Origin: a virus
Length of the DNA stretch: 26,735 nucleotides
Direction: 5' to 3' (one strand)
Virus record (IMG/VR): IMGVR_UViG_3300036046_000030
Location: 1 to 26,735 of that record
Positions 10,001 to 18,870 of this stretch are shown here, piece by piece (positions within the stretch are counted from its first letter, which is position 1; each line of letters begins with the position of its first letter). Made by a program: the position numbers and the translations under genes. The notes under the pieces are model-generated. The model was not told the origin of the DNA. It saw only the letters and a list, made by a program, of their open reading frames with translations, and did not search any database.

Positions 10001-12637
10001 TCAGCGCTCCGACTGCGCATCGTAATCCGGGATCTCCAGAATGCGATACCCCTGTCCGTGGAACCCGTACCCCTCGACCAGCTTGTCGGACTTGACGGGC
10101 ATAAGGTGACCGTTGTCGACGCACTGGCGCAGGGTATCGTCGAGCGCCTTGGCCAGGCCGAGCTTGTAGTTATAGAACGCCGCCTGCTGCTGGACACGCA
10201 TCTGGAGGTAGTGACGCGGGACAATGTGGTTAGCGCGCATCCGCTCGTCCACCTTGTACGACTTGGGAATCTCACCCTTCCGGTCACGGAAGTCACGGAT
10301 GATGTGCATGAGCTTCTTCTGACGCGCCAGATCGCCCGTACCGACGTCGCCGGTGTTGAGGCGGTTGCGCATCATTTCGATGTCACGTCGCACAAGCTGG
10401 ATCGCCCAGTTGATATGCTCGGGCTTGATCACAGGGAAGTTGAAGTTATCGCCGACCGCCAGCAGTGCTGCCACCCGAAGGGCCTTCAGCACAGCACGGT
10501 TCCACATCTGGCGCCGTGACTCGTCGTCCGTCTTGCGAATCTGCGCGTTAGCTTCCTGGCTGAACGCGGTGATGATCGCTGCGGCTTCCTCCGTCCGCTT
10601 GACAAGCTGGCTATCATTGGCAGCGATCAAGCGGTGCGCCTGTGCTGCCATGTGGACGAGGTAGTCGCGCAGCGCATCGTCGGGCGTGCTAACGATAGCG
10701 TGGTTCTCGTCAGGTCTGTCCCCGTCGTACCCGACGATCAGGAAACGCGACAGGAACCCGTCCTCCATCATGCTCTCAGTGAGCGACTCGTAGAAGGTGC
10801 CGGGTGTCGTCTCACCGATCATGCTGTACGCTACACCGGCGACCGATGCGACGTTGTTTTCAGCGCTCGAGTAGCTGATGCCCCCTGCGATACTGGTCGG
10901 ACCTGACTTCTGGTACAGGTTCGTCATCTGCGTGCGCAGGGTCTGAAGCGGTCCGTCGCGCCCGTCCTCGGTTGCGATCCGTTTAAGGCGACGTCCCCAC
11001 TCACCGCTCACGTTCACGAACGACTGCGCAGCTAGGCAAGCCTTCACCAGTGCGGGTCCTGATGCGTACTCATTGAAGTCTACGAAGTTCGTGAAAGGTC
11101 CGTACGATTGGAGGCAAGCGTTGACCACGGTGCTGATGCCGTCGTGCATCGCCTCCTTACCGATGGCCGACCGTGCCACAAGGATGATATACAGGTTCAA
11201 GCCTGACTTCGGAATGTGCCAGGCCTTGCCGCAGATCCCTGCCATCAGGCCAAGCGCTGCGACGACCGACACCTCCTTGATGGGAAGCCAGCTGTTCGAG
11301 TACATGAAGCGCGCAAGCGCGCCCACGAACCCAGGCGGCCATGGCAGACCCTTTTCCCCTGCCGCTTGCACCTCAGCGCTTACGGGCGCCATCTGTGCTA
11401 GCTCAGCGTCTAGCTGGGGCATGGGTTCAGCGGGGTTCCCCTGCCCTTCCACCTGTAGCGGTGTGATGACGCGCGGCTGTTGGACGCCAAACGGCGTCTG
11501 GATCATTGCCTCAGCTGGCGCACCGCCCTGGATGCGTTCGATCTCCGCTCGCGCACCCCGCTCAGCGTCTTCAGCAGCGCGCAGAATCGCGCTGAACTCG
11601 ACGTTCGTTTCCCGCTCTTGACGCTCGCGGATGGTCTTGAGCGTGTAGTTGAGGTAACGATCGTTCTTGGTCGCTTTCTCACGCTTCCCTAGCGCGCTAT
11701 CGCGGAACATGCGTCGGCACTGCGCATTGGACAGGCTGTAGAAGCACAGCATGGACATGAGCGACAGGTCAGCTTCCGACTGCGAAGGGTACCCCTGCTC
11801 GGCCCACTTCCCATGCCACAGCGCGAGGAACTTGTCTGAGTTCGCAGCGGTGGCGGCGACCTGGAAGACGTACCAGTCGTCAGCCTCAGGCGGTATCTCT
11901 TCAAGGATAACCTCTTTCGCCATGGGCCGCATTTGCGAGACCATGTTGCGCAGCATGATCTCGCGGTCCATGACCGGCTTATCCTTCCACACATCGCCTG
12001 TGCAGATGATAAACCGCTCCTGGCTGTACACCTCAATCCCACCGCGACGGAAGCCCCGCCCGATCTTGCCGAGGATCCAGATGTGCAGACCCTTACCGCT
12101 GCGCGAGCGCTCGGTGTAGCTGTCGTAATGATGGACGATGTTCGTGTAGAGCTGGAAGTCGTCCGGCGTCGTCCACACTTCGGGCTTGCCGGGATGCGTG
12201 CTGGCATCCTTGACGTCCAGGTCGATACAGCTGACAGGGTCCGATTCGGTGATGCAGAACCCGATGTCAAATCCCTTCTTGACGATGCGCACACCGTCCT
12301 TGATGTGTGTGGTCACCGTGTCCCGATTGTCCCATGCCGCCTGACACGCTTGCGTGAACGTCATCCACTCGCTCGGGCGGGTGACAGCGACATTCCGCAG
12401 CTTGCCGTTCGGGCCAAGCGCCATCGGCGCTTTGTCAGCACCGGCGACGGCCCACTGTGGCAGTTCGCGCAGCACCTCAGGCAACCGCGTCCACTTTGAC
12501 GGGTCTCCACTATAGGCGTTGATCGAGGTCTCCACTACAGCGGGGAGACCGGTCACCACTACACCGCCCGGCACCGATGTATCCACTACACCGGTCACCA
12601 CTACAGGCTGACCCTCGTATCCACTATCGCCCCTCAT
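10001..12637 (-). CDS. PrimPol-helicase fusion (NrS-1-like primase/polymerase with DUF3987-type ATPase)
   Basis: An 878-residue replication protein. The N-terminal PrimPol domain shows CIDLDVKD (Asp139, Asp141), SRSGKGLHIW (His185) and VYSQERFIICTGD, the three catalytic regions of archaeo-eukaryotic primase-polymerases. The segment from SEADLSLMSML to about 340 fits the helical domain after PrimPol in NrS-1-type enzymes. A linker (350-430) leads to an ATPase-like domain with ILVARSAIGKE (about 486-495), a Walker A variant in which Glu replaces Ser/Thr, and GETTPGTFYESL. It likely unwinds and primes, and may also polymerise, phage DNA. The first 36 residues (VVVTG and VVDTS units) are encoded by the CCACTAYA repeats. 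The ATG overlaps the HTH gene stop (ATGA). Confidence 0.88.
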   Translation of the reverse strand: MRGDSGYEGQPVVVTGVVDTSVPGGVVVTGLPAVVETSINAYSGDPSKWTRLPEVLRELPQWAVAGADKAPMALGPNGKLRNVAVTRPSEWMTFTQACQAAWDNRDTVTTHIKDGVRIVKKGFDIGFCITESDPVSCIDLDVKDASTHPGKPEVWTTPDDFQLYTNIVHHYDSYTERSRSGKGLHIWILGKIGRGFRRGGIEVYSQERFIICTGDVWKDKPVMDREIMLRNMVSQMRPMAKEVILEEIPPEADDWYVFQVAATAANSDKFLALWHGKWAEQGYPSQSEADLSLMSMLCFYSLSNAQCRRMFRDSALGKREKATKNDRYLNYTLKTIRERQERETNVEFSAILRAAEDAERGARAEIERIQGGAPAEAMIQTPFGVQQPRVITPLQVEGQGNPAEPMPQLDAELAQMAPVSAEVQAAGEKGLPWPPGFVGALARFMYSNSWLPIKEVSVVAALGLMAGICGKAWHIPKSGLNLYIILVARSAIGKEAMHDGISTVVNACLQSYGPFTNFVDFNEYASGPALVKACLAAQSFVNVSGEWGRRLKRIATEDGRDGPLQTLRTQMTNLYQKSGPTSIAGGISYSSAENNVASVAGVAYSMIGETTPGTFYESLTESMMEDGFLSRFLIVGYDGDRPDENHAIVSTPDDALRDYLVHMAAQAHRLIAANDSQLVKRTEEAAAIITAFSQEANAQIRKTDDESRRQMWNRAVLKALRVAALLAVGDNFNFPVIKPEHINWAIQLVRRDIEMMRNRLNTGDVGTGDLARQKKLMHIIRDFRDRKGEIPKSYKVDERMRANHIVPRHYLQMRVQQQAAFYNYKLGLAKALDDTLRQCVDNGHLMPVKSDKLVEGYGFHGQGYRILEIPDYDAQSER
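12507..12628 (+). repeat. Iteron-like cluster CCACTAYA x6 inside the PrimPol gene
   Basis: The 8-base motif CCACTACA, or CCACTATA/CCACTATC, starts at 12507, 12532, 12556, 12583, 12598 and 12621, all in the same orientation and usually preceded by TC, TCA or TAT. The spacing is irregular (15-27 bases). The cluster covers codons 4-44 of the PrimPol-helicase gene. The same motif forms a second cluster at 15668-15773. It suggests binding sites for an initiator or repressor. Confidence 0.85.
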
Positions 12638-12876
12638 GCCCGGGCCGCCCGCCAGGCGTCAAGCTCGGTCTGCCACTCGCTGAGGATCGGTTCGACCACC
12701 TTGCGGGGCCACAGAAGAAGATACGGTTGTCCGCCGGGTCGAGGTATCACGATCGCCTCGGGCAGCTTGCCGCGCTGTCGCGCGGTCACGATGGTGGCGC
12801 GATTGATGTCAAGTCGCTGGCACACCTCGACGGACGTAATGTACGTCTCGTCGAACACCTCTTGCTCTGATTTCAC
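12634..12876 (-). CDS. Small HTH DNA-binding protein (excisionase/MerR-like)
   Basis: An 80-residue protein with a helix-turn-helix: YITSVEVCQRLDINRATIVT (about 11-30), then a turn-and-strand wing ending in PYLLLWPRKVVEPIL. This fold is used by excisionases, MerR-like and phage Cox-like regulators. I use the GTG at 12876, with GGGG upstream; the open frame extends to an ATG at 12993, but that stretch crosses the promoter. It is the first gene of the unit with the PrimPol-helicase, lies beside the CCACTAYA repeats, and is a candidate to bind them or the dyads at the divergent promoters (inference). Confidence 0.82.
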   Translation of the reverse strand: MKSEQEVFDETYITSVEVCQRLDINRATIVTARQRGKLPEAIVIPRPGGQPYLLLWPRKVVEPILSEWQTELDAWRAARA

Positions 12877-13107: not shown

Positions 13108-13620
13108 ATGACCACGCAAACGAACTTTGCCGACATGGGTAAGTCGGAACTCCGCGCCGCCTGCAAGGCCGCCGGGATGACGGGCTACTCCAAGCTGAGC
13201 GTCGGCGACATGCGCGCTGAGCTGCAGAAGGCGGCCGACACCATCTACGGTTTCGAAGCCCACGGCCTCGCGCACTGCCCGCACTGCGACGTCCACCTGA
13301 GCAACGGCGTCGGGGACGGCGAAAAGACGGTGTACGGCTGCCTGGGGTGCGGTGAGGACTTCGGCCCCACCAAGTCGAAGCAGGCCGACCGCCACTCCGG
13401 CACGGGTCTGAAGATCGAAAAGGACCGTCCCGAGCGCAACGGCATCAAGCGCCCGTCGGTCGGCGGCAAGTGCCGCGCGATCTGGGACTTCCTGGACGGT
13501 GTGGTGGCCAAGGGCGAGCAGCCCACCGCCAAGCTGGTCCGCGCCCAGGCCGAGACCGCCGGCTGGAACGCCAACAACGCGGTCATCGAGTTCTACCAGT
13601 GGAGGAAGTTCAACGCCTGA
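13108..13620 (+). CDS. SAP domain/zinc ribbon DNA-binding protein
   Basis: A 170-residue protein in three parts. Residues about 8-42 (MGKSELRAACKAAGMTGYSK then LSVGDMRAEL) are a SAP-like helix-extended-helix DNA-binding motif. Residues about 55-85 hold CPHC and CLGC pairs, a four-cysteine zinc ribbon. The C-terminal 50 residues (GGKCRAIWDFLDG to FYQWRKFNA) are a helical module resembling one seen at the C-terminus of other phage proteins. AAGGAAG lies before the ATG at 13108. It is the first rightward gene next to the PrimPol promoter, so it may be an abundant DNA-binding or host-control protein (inference). Confidence 0.85.
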   Translation: MTTQTNFADMGKSELRAACKAAGMTGYSKLSVGDMRAELQKAADTIYGFEAHGLAHCPHCDVHLSNGVGDGEKTVYGCLGCGEDFGPTKSKQADRHSGTGLKIEKDRPERNGIKRPSVGGKCRAIWDFLDGVVAKGEQPTAKLVRAQAETAGWNANNAVIEFYQWRKFNA

Positions 13621-13646
13621 GGTCAACAACCAGAAACGCACCGGGG

Positions 13647-13671
13647 GCCGGCAGGGGAACACCTTGCCGGC
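13647..13671 (+). terminator. Hairpin after the SAP gene (weak terminator candidate)
   Basis: GCCGGCA (13647-13653) pairs perfectly with TGCCGGC (13665-13671) about 27 bases after the stop codon, with an 11-base loop. The sequence after it (TTCCGCG) has no real T-tract, so termination would be weak or need a factor. Confidence 0.4.
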
Positions 13672-13718
13672 TTCCGCGTGACTGAATCTGTAGCAGTGCC
13701 TGTTACAGTATCGAGAGT

Positions 13719-13746
13719 GCAAATAGTTCGAGACAGGTGCATTTTT
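13719..13746 (+). promoter_or_regulatory. Dyad element upstream of a rightward promoter (copy 2)
   Basis: Starts GCAAATAGTTCGAG and ends GTGCATTTTT, four bases before the -35 box at 13751. It shares TAGTTCGAG and the TGCRTTTTT end with the copy at 16265-16294. Confidence 0.65.
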
Positions 13747-13750
13747 GATG

Positions 13751-13779
13751 TTGCATCCAGTTTCGAACTGTCGGAGTAT
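13751..13779 (+). promoter_or_regulatory. Promoter, TTGCAT-N17-GAGTAT
   Basis: TTGCAT (13751-13756), 17 bases, GAGTAT (13774-13779), 25 bases before the ATG at 13804. The GAGTAT -10 box is the same as at 16322-16327. Confidence 0.62.
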
Positions 13780-13803
13780 GGGCGCATCACAAGGAGCTAC
13801 CCC

Positions 13804-14031
13804 ATGATCAGCCAAGCACAGCGCATCGCGGACCTCACCGCCACCATCGCCAATCACCGCAAGGTCGGCAACACCGAGATGGCCGACCGTATGCAAGCCA
13901 AGCTGGATATGTACAGCGAGATGACCGAGCGCGAGTACGTCGAGCACGAGATCGCCGTTATGTCCAAGTCGAACTTCTTCCAGGTGCGTCGCGCTGCCGA
14001 TCGCCTGGCCCGCGAACTCCTGGGAGCCTGA
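13804..14031 (+). CDS. Unknown small helical protein
   Basis: A 75-residue, almost wholly helical, charged protein. ACAAGGAGCTACCCC gives a strong ribosome binding site for the ATG at 13804; the longer open frame upstream runs through the promoter and is rejected. Heptad-like spacing in ISQAQRIADLTATIANHRKV suggests a coiled coil. It is followed two bases later by the next small gene. Function unknown. Confidence 0.8.
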   Translation: MISQAQRIADLTATIANHRKVGNTEMADRMQAKLDMYSEMTEREYVEHEIAVMSKSNFFQVRRAADRLARELLGA

Positions 14032-14033
14032 GC

Positions 14034-14168
14034 ATGTCCACCCTGCGACGCTGCATCATCCACGCCGCCATGGAAGCTGGCGACAACGAGTTCGCCGCCT
14101 GGCTCCTGAGCCGCCCGCGGGTCAGCTACACGACCCTCACCCTCTACGCCATCCACTACGGGATCTGA
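14034..14168 (+). CDS. Unknown 44-residue protein
   Basis: Starts with the ATG at 14034, two bases after the previous stop, and reads MSTLRRCIIHAAMEAGDNEF and on to YAIHYGI. GGGAGCCTGAGC before it gives a ribosome binding site inside the end of the previous gene. No homology is claimed; support comes from spacing in the run of small genes. Confidence 0.6.
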   Translation: MSTLRRCIIHAAMEAGDNEFAAWLLSRPRVSYTTLTLYAIHYGI

Positions 14169-14171
14169 CCC

Positions 14172-14330
14172 ATGCTGCAAGGCCTCCTGACCCTGTGTAC
14201 CCGGTTCGGGTTCGACTACACCGACGAGCTTGAGACCGCGTACGAACTGGCGTGCATCACCGCCGACCAAGTCGATCGCGACCCGCATGAGTGCTTGGCG
14301 AAGCTTCAAGCAGCGATGGAGGACTGCTGA
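14172..14330 (+). CDS. Unknown 52-residue acidic protein
   Basis: ATG at 14172, three bases after the previous stop. The product is acidic and helical (FDYTDELETAYELACITADQ) with four cysteines. There is no strong Shine-Dalgarno sequence, so translation probably depends on the gene before it. Function unknown. Confidence 0.6.
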   Translation: MLQGLLTLCTRFGFDYTDELETAYELACITADQVDRDPHECLAKLQAAMEDC

Positions 14331-14332
14331 CT

Positions 14333-14560
14333 ATGCGTACCCTATTCGACAACCGCCGGAACTGGTTCACCGTGATGGTGACCGCCGCCACGGTGCTGTA
14401 TCTGACGTCGTGTGCTGCGCTTCTCGGCAAGCTGGCGTTCCAACACGAGCCGACCGAAGCGCCGGCACTGGTCGGATACGGCTGCGAGGGTGCTGACGGA
14501 CCCCTGTATGCGGTCGAGGAGGACCACTTCCCGCGCTGCGAACGAATCGAAGTGCGGTGA
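14333..14560 (+). CDS. Small membrane protein or lipoprotein
   Basis: A 75-residue protein with a short basic start (MRTLFDNRRNW) and a hydrophobic segment at about 12-34 (FTVMVTAATVLYLTSCAALL). LTSC resembles a lipobox, so it may be a lipoprotein, but a plain single membrane helix is equally possible. The remaining 40 residues would face the periplasm and hold two more cysteines. GGAGGACTGCT lies before the ATG. Last gene of this rightward unit. Confidence 0.7.
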   Translation: MRTLFDNRRNWFTVMVTAATVLYLTSCAALLGKLAFQHEPTEAPALVGYGCEGADGPLYAVEEDHFPRCERIEVR

Positions 14561-14586: not shown

Positions 14587-15300
14587 TCACCTAGCGTCGC
14601 GCAGCACCCGCTCAGCTTCAGCAATCTGCAAGGCCCAGTGCTCGCGCTGGGCCTTGCGCACGTCTGCGCGGCGCAGCATTTCCTGATGCGCTTCCTTGAC
14701 CCATGCGTCGATCTGCTCCAGCTCCGCGTTCCGAGCGGCCTTGAGCGCAGCTAGGTTCTCGGTAGCCGCCCGCACAGCGGCAGTGCCAGCCGGTTCGCGC
14801 ACAGGTACCCCGTCACCCGTCCCTGCGGCTACAGCCGCCCCGCTGTCGCCCGTAGCGGGTACCTCACCCGCCTGGGCCTTCTTGCGCTCCCTGTGACGGT
14901 TGACGCGCTCCTTGTTGAGCCGCTTCTGACGTGCTTCCCAGGACTCGTTCGGGTTGACCACACAGCGGTTCGCTGCGACCAGTGCATCGGCACAGCGCGC
15001 ACCTGCTTCAGCTAGCAGGTCGCACAAGCGCTTGGGCTGCTGACCGTGGAGGTAGCCAGCTTGCATGGCGAGGTCCGGCAGCGTGGGGCAGGGGTGAGCG
15101 GGTAGGTCACGCGGCCACCAGTCACAGGCGCGCCAGTAGTCGAGGAGCATGTTGTCGTCGACGAACCAGTTTAGGTCCGGCAGGTGCAGAAGGTTGTTCT
15201 GGACTGCACTGGCGTTGATCAGTGCGGTGTACTGCTGCATCTCAGCAGGTGTGACGGTAGGGTCGAGCAGACGCTCGCGTAGCGCGTGGATTTGTGACAT
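14587..15300 (-). CDS. Unknown basic and coiled-coil protein beside the repeat region
   Basis: A 237-residue protein transcribed leftward between rightward units. The N-terminal half is a folded domain rich in W, L and C. The middle has a very basic stretch, EARQKRLNKERVNRHRERKK, then an A/G/V-rich linker, and the C-terminal 60 residues are a charged helix likely to form a coiled coil. The basic stretch suggests nucleic-acid binding. The gene starts next to the CCATTACA/CCACTAYA repeats, so it could be a repressor or initiator that binds them; this is inference from position. ATG at 15300 chosen because the promoter at 15339-15367 lies before it and an earlier ATG at 15378 precedes that promoter. 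The ribosome binding site is weak. Confidence 0.78.
   Translation of the reverse strand: MSQIHALRERLLDPTVTPAEMQQYTALINASAVQNNLLHLPDLNWFVDDNMLLDYWRACDWWPRDLPAHPCPTLPDLAMQAGYLHGQQPKRLCDLLAEAGARCADALVAANRCVVNPNESWEARQKRLNKERVNRHRERKKAQAGEVPATGDSGAAVAAGTGDGVPVREPAGTAAVRAATENLAALKAARNAELEQIDAWVKEAHQEMLRRADVRKAQREHWALQIAEAERVLRDAR
14628..14657. other. Perfect 11-bp inverted repeat within the 237-residue gene
   Basis: GCAAGGCCCAG (14628-14638) and CTGGGCCTTGC (14647-14657) are exact inverted copies with an eight-base loop. They lie about 70 bases beyond the end of the convergent rightward unit, inside the 3' part of the leftward gene. No T-tract follows on either strand, so it could be a factor-aided stop for the rightward transcript or chance in a high-GC gene. 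Confidence 0.4.
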
Positions 15301-15338
15301 GACGATACCTGTAACGGAGGGAAGGGTAGGCGGCGCGT

Positions 15339-15367
15339 TACATACGGCTTTAATGAAAAGATCACAA
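15339..15367 (-). promoter_or_regulatory. Promoter, TTGTGA-N17-TATGTA
   Basis: Minus strand TTGTGA (15367-15362), 17 bases, TATGTA (15344-15339), about 40 bases before the ATG at 15300. CCATTACA motifs flank its upstream side (15386-15393 and 15417-15440), so they could act as operators. The -35 box departs from the TTGC of other promoters. Confidence 0.5.
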
Positions 15368-15385
15368 GTGCTATACAAGGGCGTT

Positions 15386-15629
15386 CCATTACAACCCGCG
15401 GCCGGCCTCTATTCGATGTAATGGTGTAATGGTGTAATGGTCACCTCCCTATAACGGTAATAATGTATTTGCATAGTATAGTATTTCAGGGTACCCCTTC
15501 TGTATTCGTCAGTAGTTCCATTACGAACTACTTGCCTACCACTGTTTCGGGCCAGTTCCATTACACTATAGGTCTGACAGGGCTGTGATAGTTACATATC
15601 GAGCATCGGTTCCGAAGTATCGGTAATGG
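15386..15629. repeat. CCATTACA motif group, including three perfect tandem copies
   Basis: CCATTACA occurs on the plus strand at 15386-15393 and 15558-15565, with CCATTACG at 15518-15525. The inverted form TGTAATGG occurs three times head to tail without spacing at 15417-15440, and GGTAATGG at 15622-15629. It differs by one base from CCACTACA, so it is probably read by the same or a related protein. Confidence 0.8.
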
Positions 15630-15667
15630 TGATCGCTCAACTTATTCGACACGGCTGCGGCGTGTGT

Positions 15668-15773
15668 CCACTACAGCGGTGTCCACTATACTGGCGTCAC
15701 CACTATAGGCAGGTCTCCACTACACCGGTGTTCAGAATAGGCGTGTGTCCACTACAGGTGACGCTCCACTACA
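15668..15773 (+). repeat. Iteron cluster CCACTAYA x6, mostly 15-17 base spacing
   Basis: CCACTACA or CCACTATA begins at 15668, 15683, 15700, 15717, 15749 and 15766. Steps are 15, 17, 17, 32 and 17 bases; the 32-base gap contains a degenerate copy near 15731 (TTCAGAATA). The regular step is close to one and a half helical turns. Flanks are variable, so the octamer is the conserved core. Same orientation as the cluster at 12507-12628. Confidence 0.85.
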
Positions 15774-16173
15774 GGGAGGTCGGCGGCCTGGCGGCTCACT
15801 GTGGTCACCCTCGATCGGTGCTCGGCCTGGTAGCCGATGGCCGCCTGGGGAGAGTCGTCGAGCGGCGACGTCGCTGAACTACGACGCATCCGATCCTGAG
15901 CCGACCCATCGACCTAGCACGGGGAGCCGCCTGGGTCAAGCCGGCTAGCAGCTTCGAGTCTCGGCCGGCCTATTCAGTAACTGGAACTGTTACTGTTGCC
16001 ATTCAGCCTGGTAGGCGCGCCTACAGCAAGTCGACCTAACTGTAAAGCGAAAACAGACCTGGACGAGTCGAAAAGGTGTGGAAAACCGACACATCGACAT
16101 AAAGGCCGATTTAAGCCGGCTACAGCCGGATCGAGGGCGGTGCGGTGTACTGGTATAGAAAAATGAATGTTGC

Positions 16174-16214
16174 CGAAAATCGGATTTTCGACGGTTGTCC
16201 CCTTGCACAACCGT
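16174..16214. promoter_or_regulatory. Two adjacent dyads, operator candidates
   Basis: CGAAAATC (16174-16181) and GATTTTCG (16183-16190) form a near-perfect palindrome around one G. Immediately after, ACGGTTGT (16191-16198) and ACAACCGT (16207-16214) form an exact inverted repeat with an eight-base gap. The second dyad covers the -35 box of the promoter at 16203-16231, where a bound repressor would block RNA polymerase. Confidence 0.6.
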
Positions 16215-16231
16215 TTCAGATGCTATAGGCG
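16203..16231 (+). promoter_or_regulatory. Promoter, TTGCAC-N17-TAGGCG
   Basis: TTGCAC (16203-16208), 17 bases, TAGGCG (16226-16231), overlapped by the inverted repeat at 16191-16214. It would be the distal of two promoters for the gene at 16361. Confidence 0.45.
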
Positions 16232-16264
16232 GGCGCCGAAGCATTGCTCCCCGAAAAGCCGGCT

Positions 16265-16294
16265 GCAAAAATAGTTCGAGCTCGATGCGTTTTT
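16265..16294 (+). promoter_or_regulatory. Dyad element upstream of a rightward promoter (copy 3)
   Basis: A 30-base element: GCAAAAATAGTTCGAG followed by CTCGATGCGTTTTT. The centre TCGAGCTCGA is a perfect palindrome, and the two halves match at about 10 of 14 positions when inverted. It ends four bases before the -35 box at 16299, the same arrangement as at 13719 and 13003. Confidence 0.68.
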
Positions 16295-16298
16295 GGGG

Positions 16299-16327
16299 TT
16301 TACATCGGCTCCCCCATATCCGAGTAT
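16299..16327 (+). promoter_or_regulatory. Promoter, TTTACA-N17-GAGTAT
   Basis: TTTACA (16299-16304), 17 bases, GAGTAT (16322-16327), followed 33 bases later by the ATG at 16361. It shares the upstream dyad and the -10 box with the promoter at 13751-13779. Confidence 0.6.
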
Positions 16328-16360
16328 GTATATGCGCAATGCAGCGCCGGAGGACGACCC

Positions 16361-16585
16361 ATGGCCCAGCTGACCCACCCCGCCTTCTACGTGGCCGAGA
16401 TTCACGCGGACCACGACTTCAATAAGCAGGTGGCTCGCAACGCATGGAGCACCCTGCAAGCCGCTCGCGATTGGGCGGATGGGTGGATCGCTGACCAGCT
16501 GATGCACGACAAGCGTGCGGACCCCACCTTCGACGGATACAGCTACAGCTACGTCGTCGTTGAGTTCGTCGTCCAGGACATCTGA
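16361..16585 (+). CDS. Unknown 74-residue protein
   Basis: Starts at the ATG at 16361 with GGAGGACGACCC before it. The N-terminal two thirds are helical (VARNAWSTLQAARDWADGWI) and the C-terminal end is a beta-like YSYSYVVVEFVVQDI. No known motif. It is the first gene after the gene-free region and has the most elaborate promoter region in the window (two promoters, a dyad element and an operator candidate), which points to tight control, possibly very early or regulatory expression. Confidence 0.8.
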   Translation: MAQLTHPAFYVAEIHADHDFNKQVARNAWSTLQAARDWADGWIADQLMHDKRADPTFDGYSYSYVVVEFVVQDI

Positions 16586-17236: not shown

Positions 17237-17265
17237 TTGCACGCCACCGCGCGGCCGCGTAGGTA
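17237..17265 (+). promoter_or_regulatory. Promoter of the candidate noncoding RNA, TTGCAC-N17-TAGGTA
   Basis: TTGCAC (17237-17242), 17 bases, TAGGTA (17260-17265), with GTGCATTTTC before the -35 box as at other members. No gene with protein-like sequence begins within the next 500 bases, and the next gene has its own promoter. Transcription would start near 17272. Confidence 0.6.
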
Positions 17266-18011: not shown

Positions 18012-18496
18012 CTTACGTCATCAAACCGGTCGTTCCCATCAGCGACAGGGTGGCTTGCCGGGTGCAAGAGCTCCAGATCGCCGGCGAAACGCCGAGCCAC
18101 ATCCTCTTTTCGCCCGAAGGGTACTCGAAAGCTCGCTTGGAAGCCGAGGCGCTGCTGAGATTCGGCGGCGTTGGCGAGTATGCGGTTGGCACTGCGCCGA
18201 TGGAGTACATGGGCATTCCCTACAGCATCGGGCGTCTGCCGCCTAACACCGACGATCCTGACTTCGTGGTCGATACGAAGGAGGCGGAAGCGCGGCGCAG
18301 ACCACCGCCTCCGACCGATCTTCAGCTGGCCAACCGGTTTCTCGAGATGCTCATGAGCGGTCTTGACGACTGGCTGCCGTATGCTGAGCGTGAGCTGTCG
18401 CGCGACAAGGCGATGGCCACGACGGTCGCCGAGATTCGCATCGGTGATCGGAACTATCGCGTCACTGTCGAAACCCTCGAAAGGGAACCCATCTGA
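18008..18496 (+). CDS. Unknown 162-residue protein
   Basis: Begins with the GTG at 18008 that overlaps the previous stop. Mixed alpha/beta protein with a charged central segment TKEAEARRRPPPPTDLQ and a C-terminal strand pair (AEIRIGDRNYRVTVETLE). No known motif. The stop overlaps the next ATG (TGATG). Confidence 0.8.
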   Translation: MTYVIKPVVPISDRVACRVQELQIAGETPSHILFSPEGYSKARLEAEALLRFGGVGEYAVGTAPMEYMGIPYSIGRLPPNTDDPDFVVDTKEAEARRRPPPPTDLQLANRFLEMLMSGLDDWLPYAERELSRDKAMATTVAEIRIGDRNYRVTVETLEREPI

Positions 18497-18870
18497 TGTT
18501 TGACAGACAACAGATCATTCGAATCTTGCAAAGAGGGTTTGTCGCCGAACGAAGCCGCATTCACGGCGGCGGATTCTATGTCGTGGCGCTTGATGGGACA
18601 CGGGACGGCATATTCTACACCGACCCCGATGATGCTGAAGAGCATCTCGCAGGGCTACGGGCGGATGCAATCCTGAACTTGGGAAGAATCAGTCCGTCTG
18701 AGGACCTGCTTACCAACGATGAAGCCGCCAACATCCTCGGAATCCGTCCGAATACACTCGAAATCTGGCGGCATAAGGGGAAGGGTCCCAAGTACATCAA
18801 ACTTGGGACAGGGAAAAGCTCGCCCATTCGCTATCGCCGCACTGACATTCAGGTTTGGATGAATCAATGA
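18496..18870 (+). CDS. Protein with C-terminal excisionase-like HTH
   Basis: A 124-residue DNA-binding protein. Residues 1-65 are an unknown domain (FYVVALDGTRDGIFYTDPDD). From about 71 on, LLTNDEAANILGIRPNTLEI, WRHKGKGPKYIKLG and IRYRRTDIQVWM form the typical HTH_17/excisionase winged helix. Such proteins act as repressors or recombination directionality factors; no integrase is seen in the window, so a regulatory role is more likely. ATG overlaps the preceding stop, and its own stop overlaps the next ATG (ATGA). Confidence 0.85.
   Translation: MFDRQQIIRILQRGFVAERSRIHGGGFYVVALDGTRDGIFYTDPDDAEEHLAGLRADAILNLGRISPSEDLLTNDEAANILGIRPNTLEIWRHKGKGPKYIKLGTGKSSPIRYRRTDIQVWMNQ

Follow-up and report, generated by a model that had tools for sequence, protein, structure and literature searches.

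A gene-free region between two divergent gene arms

What does the longest gene-free stretch of this viral DNA do: does it start replication, as a preliminary description of its repeats at 15301-15780 proposed, or does it control the two gene arms that diverge from it? The window, i.e. the whole stretch of DNA that was analyzed, comprises 26,735 nt of an IMG/VR virus record (IMGVR_UViG_3300036046_000030). Its longest stretch without a credible gene, correctly singled out before, is bounded by the gene start at 15300 and the next gene, at 16361 (~1 kb). ORFs inside 15301-16360 were short and probably spurious, and this gap separates two oppositely transcribed gene blocks. The interval first described is real, but covers no more than the left half of what is conserved. 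Comparison with relatives resolved two distinct site families in the gap, family A beside gene 14587-15300 and family B towards the other arm. The features of the region and of the genes around it were as follows.

10001-12637, minus strand: PrimPol/helicase gene (phrog_3022) with NrS-1-type HBD and DUF3987 domains
12507-12605, plus strand: family B again, a second cluster with five CCACTAYA antisense to PrimPol, at the 5' end of that gene
12634-12876, minus strand: gene for a small winged-HTH protein (HTH_17), which overlaps the start of PrimPol (ATGA) and probably begins with GTG at 12876
14587-15300, minus strand: gene beside the A sites, for a helical, coiled-coil protein with a basic motif
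15384-15440, no strand assigned: family A left group, CCATTACA (+) at 15386 and three TGTAATGG, around the block CGGCCGGCCTCTAYYCGAT, which is conserved in the relative L148
15417-15440: contiguous TGTAATGG triplet at 15417, 15425 and 15433, part of the left group
15410-15529, no strand assigned: AT-rich core
15515-15565, plus strand: family A right group, CCATTACG at 15515 and CCATTACA at 15558
15668-15773, plus strand: family B array, six CCACTAYA (TRTAGTGG on the minus strand) in a single orientation
15970-16360, no strand assigned: right half of the non-coding region, with conserved blocks CAGTAAC..GTT, AGCCGGCTACAGC, GTACTGGTA and TTGCACAAC
16077-16085, minus strand: DnaA-box match TTTTCCACA, the only match to TTWTNCACA in the window, conserved in L148

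Family A has the consensus TGTAATGG/SCATTACA and occurs on both strands. Five exact copies of CCATTACA were found (15386 and 15558 on the plus strand; 15417, 15425 and 15433 on the minus strand) compared with 0.21 expected, which bears out the related sites on both strands reported before. The AT-rich stretch was likewise recovered, with a GC content of 35-40% compared with ~61% in the surroundings.

The six intergenic CCACTAYA copies noted previously were confirmed; they start at 15668, 15683, 15700, 15717, 15749 and 15766, all on the plus strand. Their steps, given earlier as 15-17 bases, are 15, 17, 17, 32 and 17, so that four agree and one step of 32 had been overlooked. The window contained 11 CCACTAYA in total, all on the plus strand, compared with a mean of 0.48 and a maximum of 3 in 100 dinucleotide-preserving shuffles. 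A motif-agnostic test, which left out the low-complexity segment 3701-4400 with its 7-copy family, found six octamer copies per 110 bp here and at most three in 12 shuffles. On the basis of the shuffles, chance was rejected as the source of the arrays. The extended B motif, CCCCyTRTAGTGGNGACC, occurs in one orientation and is a descriptive consensus over the B records named below, refined across several scans after its first sighting.

The octamer also recurs in the PrimPol gene, as had been stated, in five copies of which four share the codon phase, at a distance of 3.06 kb edge to edge instead of 2.9 kb. Homology of PrimPol to its relatives starts mostly near residue 47, placing the five octamers in an N-terminal extension missing from most relatives, and where the PrimPol start of a relative was read, nothing equivalent to the cluster was present. 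The extension (12499-12634, minus strand) consists largely of the octamer repeats, coding for VVxT-like repeats. An RNA element was considered as an explanation of the arrays and dropped, given that the intergenic arrays neither matched Rfam nor folded unusually as RNA; for the cluster inside PrimPol the folding z was -1.9.

Conservation of the region in related phages

The nearest isolates were Sphingomonas phage MMDA13, at 62% protein identity, and Nipunavirus NP1 with its relatives, at ~58%. The gap of L148 repeats the layout of the window: CCATTACA on both strands beside a homologue (45% identity) of the 14587-15300 protein, then an AT-rich segment at the same place, and then a B array of four TGTAGTGG copies in a single orientation (1988-2094). 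Family A was retained in L148 and in the MMDA13 group. It adjoins the homologue of gene 14587-15300 in MMDA13, L014, L015 and L005, where the sites are TGTAATGC-like and the L005 sequence covers only 331 bases upstream of that gene. It was not seen in the gap of NP1, though NP1 has an HTH relative. At the far end of the gap, a GTTAAC tandem repeat takes the place of family B in MMDA13, L014 and L015. Judged from the sequences, conservation reaches further for family A, and the second array differs between lineages. The 1186-bp gap of MMDA13 and its 12-bp direct repeat have been described previously (PMC7472734).

The right half of the region is shared as well; 15780-16400 aligned to L148 with a mean column identity of 75%, a value based on two sequences only. 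The single DnaA-box match compares with 0.32 expected in the window and is by itself within chance. Single-stranded DNA hairpins were predicted at 16155-16225 (z -3.4) and were not found in the aligned L148 segment. Because both arrays recur in relatives, and one of them also in unrelated phages, the gap is probably genuine control DNA.

Genes flanking the region

The HTH_17 assignment of the 12634-12876 product fell below the Pfam cut-off. Its structure model had a pLDDT of 95.9, and its fold matches were headed by the RdfS excisionase and BldC, with mycobacteriophage Xis lower and MarR-type proteins intermixed; these matches were weak (best E 0.08, none below 0.001). A second HTH_17 protein, above the Pfam cut-off, is encoded in the rightward arm (18496-18870, plus strand). 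The protein encoded by 14587-15300 carries the basic motif RLNKERVNRHR (family consensus RLNRERVARHR); its model (pLDDT 84) had no PDB match, and a search of viral contigs with its L148 homologue returned L148 itself only.

In relatives, the HTH gene lies immediately before PrimPol and, in several of them, the homologue of 14587-15300 lies before the HTH gene. A plus-strand gene block (13108-14560) stands between these two genes in the window; in several relatives the two are adjacent and the homologue of 13108 is located in the other arm.

Family B sites in phages with unrelated primases

Pattern scans of viral contigs identified irregular B arrays in L148, L045 (G003), L143 (G001), L326 (G009) and L327 (G010), and by our count the family occurs in four lineages, a small number; besides that of the window these are L045, G001/G009 and G010/Carli, the latter two with unrelated primases where one was found. 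Most matches of the scans in viral and bacterial contigs were coding-type tandem repeats, e.g. YSG repeats, and were set aside by their sequence and by a spacing in multiples of three. Other matches were inverted TGTAGTGGCA clusters on both strands inside open frames (L036, 7949-8102; L078 likewise has clusters) and tandem TGTAGTGGGGACGG and TGTAGTGGCAACGGCT in a Lachnospiraceae MAG (L216) and a Streptomyces contig (L268), which look unrelated. BLAST of the region returned nothing in phage records and, in plasmids, only short matches with E about 0.1. A 24-bp near match to the G001 array, with an E of 2 that may be chance, lies inside a hypothetical gene of Sphingobium plasmid pTK2 (L338, 2501-2524), near genes for a MucR-family regulator and an HU-family protein.

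The primases of these phages differ. L045 encodes a phrog_3022 primase 28% identical to that of the window, with four octamers directly after its PrimPol stop codon. G009 encodes a DnaG-type primase with a CHC2 zinc finger and Toprim; a PF09250 primase was not found in G009 or G001, and no primase was identified in G001. The PF09250 PrimPol of G010 shares 45% identity with its counterpart in Sphingomonas phage Carli and showed no significant similarity to the primases of the window or L045. Carli, which infects Sphingomonas, carries TGTAGCGGAGACA twice, a B-like variant, together with GTTAAC sites in its divergent gap; the match to Carli first had an E of 0.5, and a later value of 7e-14 is circular, as the query contained Carli's own sequence.

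An all-against-all comparison of ORFs of at least 55 aa found no protein family common to all six records, among which the window and L148 are fragments, so that a shared gene could be missing from it. At E up to 0.1, HTH_17 was detected in the window, G001, G009 and MMDA13 and was not detected in G002, G003, G010 and Carli, all four with B or B-like arrays. The HTH protein of the window is thus unlikely to be a common B factor.

What, then, reads family B? Promoters of T7-type RNA polymerases have the core CACTATAGGG, which CCACTAYAGGGG on the CCACTAYA strand partly resembles. That the arrays are such promoters is nevertheless highly improbable: units 15-17 bp apart are shorter than one T7-type promoter, and a single-subunit RNA polymerase was found neither in the Carli annotation, where most genes are hypothetical, nor among the window genes examined. 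The explanation was rejected on these two grounds.

A host regulator is another candidate reader; the phage would rely on it for the timing of its program, a role already suggested for CtrA in alphaproteobacterial phages. The recurrence of B in phages that share no detected protein would suit it, as would the Sphingomonas host of Carli, the Carli gap, in which GTTAAC and B-like repeats occur together, and the MMDA13 repeats at the equivalent place, which overlap three predicted CtrA sites (PMC9437464). The window itself contained no CtrA-type site (TTAA-N7-TTAA or GTTAAC). Against a host reader, no host regulator with the B consensus was identified, and a scan of 385 alphaproteobacterial genomes found no double B site, although single sites could still serve a host regulon. 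On balance we consider this explanation rather unlikely. We are similarly doubtful that the TRTAGTGGNGACC arrays form a phage-specific cis element of unrelated lineages with different replication machineries, with one common reader that times the early program or replication. A single common reader of family B, should there be one, would implicate a regulator, probably a host protein, exploited by unrelated phages, and the array would be a concrete bait for finding it.

Evidence for and against a replication origin

A tentative explanation, and a possible one, is that the gap is the replication origin of the phage. The arrays would then be iterons and the AT-rich core would be unwound; PrimPol, together with its operon partners, would initiate there, and the cluster in the PrimPol gene would be the second site of a two-part origin, which, as suggested before, may loop. 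As in iteron origins, several short repeats of one orientation lie in non-coding DNA near the putative initiator gene, and an AT-rich element lies between the repeats, with the window's only DnaA-box match, conserved in L148, in the same gap. Iteron spacing is regular, near two helical turns, whereas the steps of the array are irregular, here and in the other B records.

The cumulative GC skew, proposed before as a check, spoke on both sides. In MMDA13 its minimum (47,659) lies just outside the equivalent gap (47,760-48,945), but the minimum of the window itself is at 17,248 and that of Carli is not at its array. GC skew follows gene direction, also in NP1, and does not discriminate. An origin here is possible in view of the DnaA-box match and of the MMDA13 minimum by the equivalent gap.

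The B array directly after the PrimPol stop codon in L045 resembles SaPI origins, which lie downstream of rep (PMC7581432). In addition, NrS-1 PrimPol prefers GTGA/GTGG templates (PMC8718748), and TRTAGTGG contains GTGG; the NrS-1 site TTTGGTTA, however, had no match in the window. B arrays also accompany an unrelated PrimPol in G010, with a variant in Carli, and a DnaG-type primase in G009. This weakens the idea of an iteron for PrimPol and speaks against PrimPol as the binder. With a different repeat in the MMDA13 group as well, the proposal that the octamer is an origin iteron of this PrimPol system was not supported. The broader proposal of an origin kept part of its ground, through the conserved non-coding region with two arrays near replication genes, its AT-rich core, the DnaA box and the MMDA13 skew minimum. 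That the repeats serve only as repressor operators is at least as likely as that they are origin iterons. Should the region be an origin, PrimPol phages of the Nipunavirus/MMDA13 group would gain a mapped origin candidate; our literature library returned nothing on Nipunavirus and replication origin.

A bipartite control region as the preferred reading

We hold with moderate confidence that 15301-16360 is a control region from which the two arms diverge, with two arrays of putative protein-binding sites. Both site families are enriched and the two-part layout is the same in L148. Against this reading, a search of the region for sigma-70-like promoters found none, so that there was no direct sign of a regulated target; the fold matches of the HTH model are weak, NP1 has an HTH relative but no family A seen in its gap, and the AT-rich core, DnaA box and MMDA13 skew minimum are compatible with an origin too. 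The regulatory and origin readings are compatible and both can be true; perhaps a conserved bipartite regulatory region overlaps an origin.

From the positions of the arrays and their gene neighborhood we infer the following course. Family A (TGTAATGG/CCATTACA), around the AT-rich core, would probably be bound by a phage protein. The best candidate is the product of the small gene immediately ahead of PrimPol, a BldC/Xis-like winged-HTH protein, since proteins of this fold bind direct repeats in a head-to-tail manner. Family B (TRTAGTGGNGACC) would be read by a different factor, encoded by the phage or the host. Occupancy of the sites may time early transcription of both arms, and through the additional B cluster at its 5' end the primase gene may come under the same B factor.

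Comparison with known systems

In satellite phage P4, ori and crr are two separated clusters of one repeat near the primase-helicase gene, a layout that the two CCACTAYA clusters of the window resemble. P4 alpha belongs to the primases of the bacterial Toprim type (PMC4234260). The iteron origins of SaPI and SCCmec also have short repeats near a helicase/primase gene, and the SCCmec repeat TACCACTTAAT likewise contains CCACT; its binding by the element's own helicase has been shown (PMC7581432), whereas the motif described here is known from sequence and occurs with unrelated primases too. The NrS-1 recognition site (PMC7102993, PMC8718748) is related through the HBD domain and the GTGG core within TRTAGTGG, but NrS-1 has two sites where the window has an array.

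Head-to-tail binding to direct repeats has been published for BldC (PMC5859096), and RdfS builds head-to-tail filaments (PMC11963761). The predicted small winged-HTH fold of the 12634-12876 product is shared with BldC, RdfS and Xis, although the A consensus is unlike theirs and the E-values of the fold matches are weak; by analogy, the contiguous triplet of TGTAATGG would suit head-to-tail binding. MMDA13 differs in its own tandem repeat, CGTTAACC, which overlaps predicted CtrA sites, but shares with the window a long, AT-richer non-coding gap where the arms diverge, SCATTACA-type sites next to the homologous gene and a tandem repeat at the far end.
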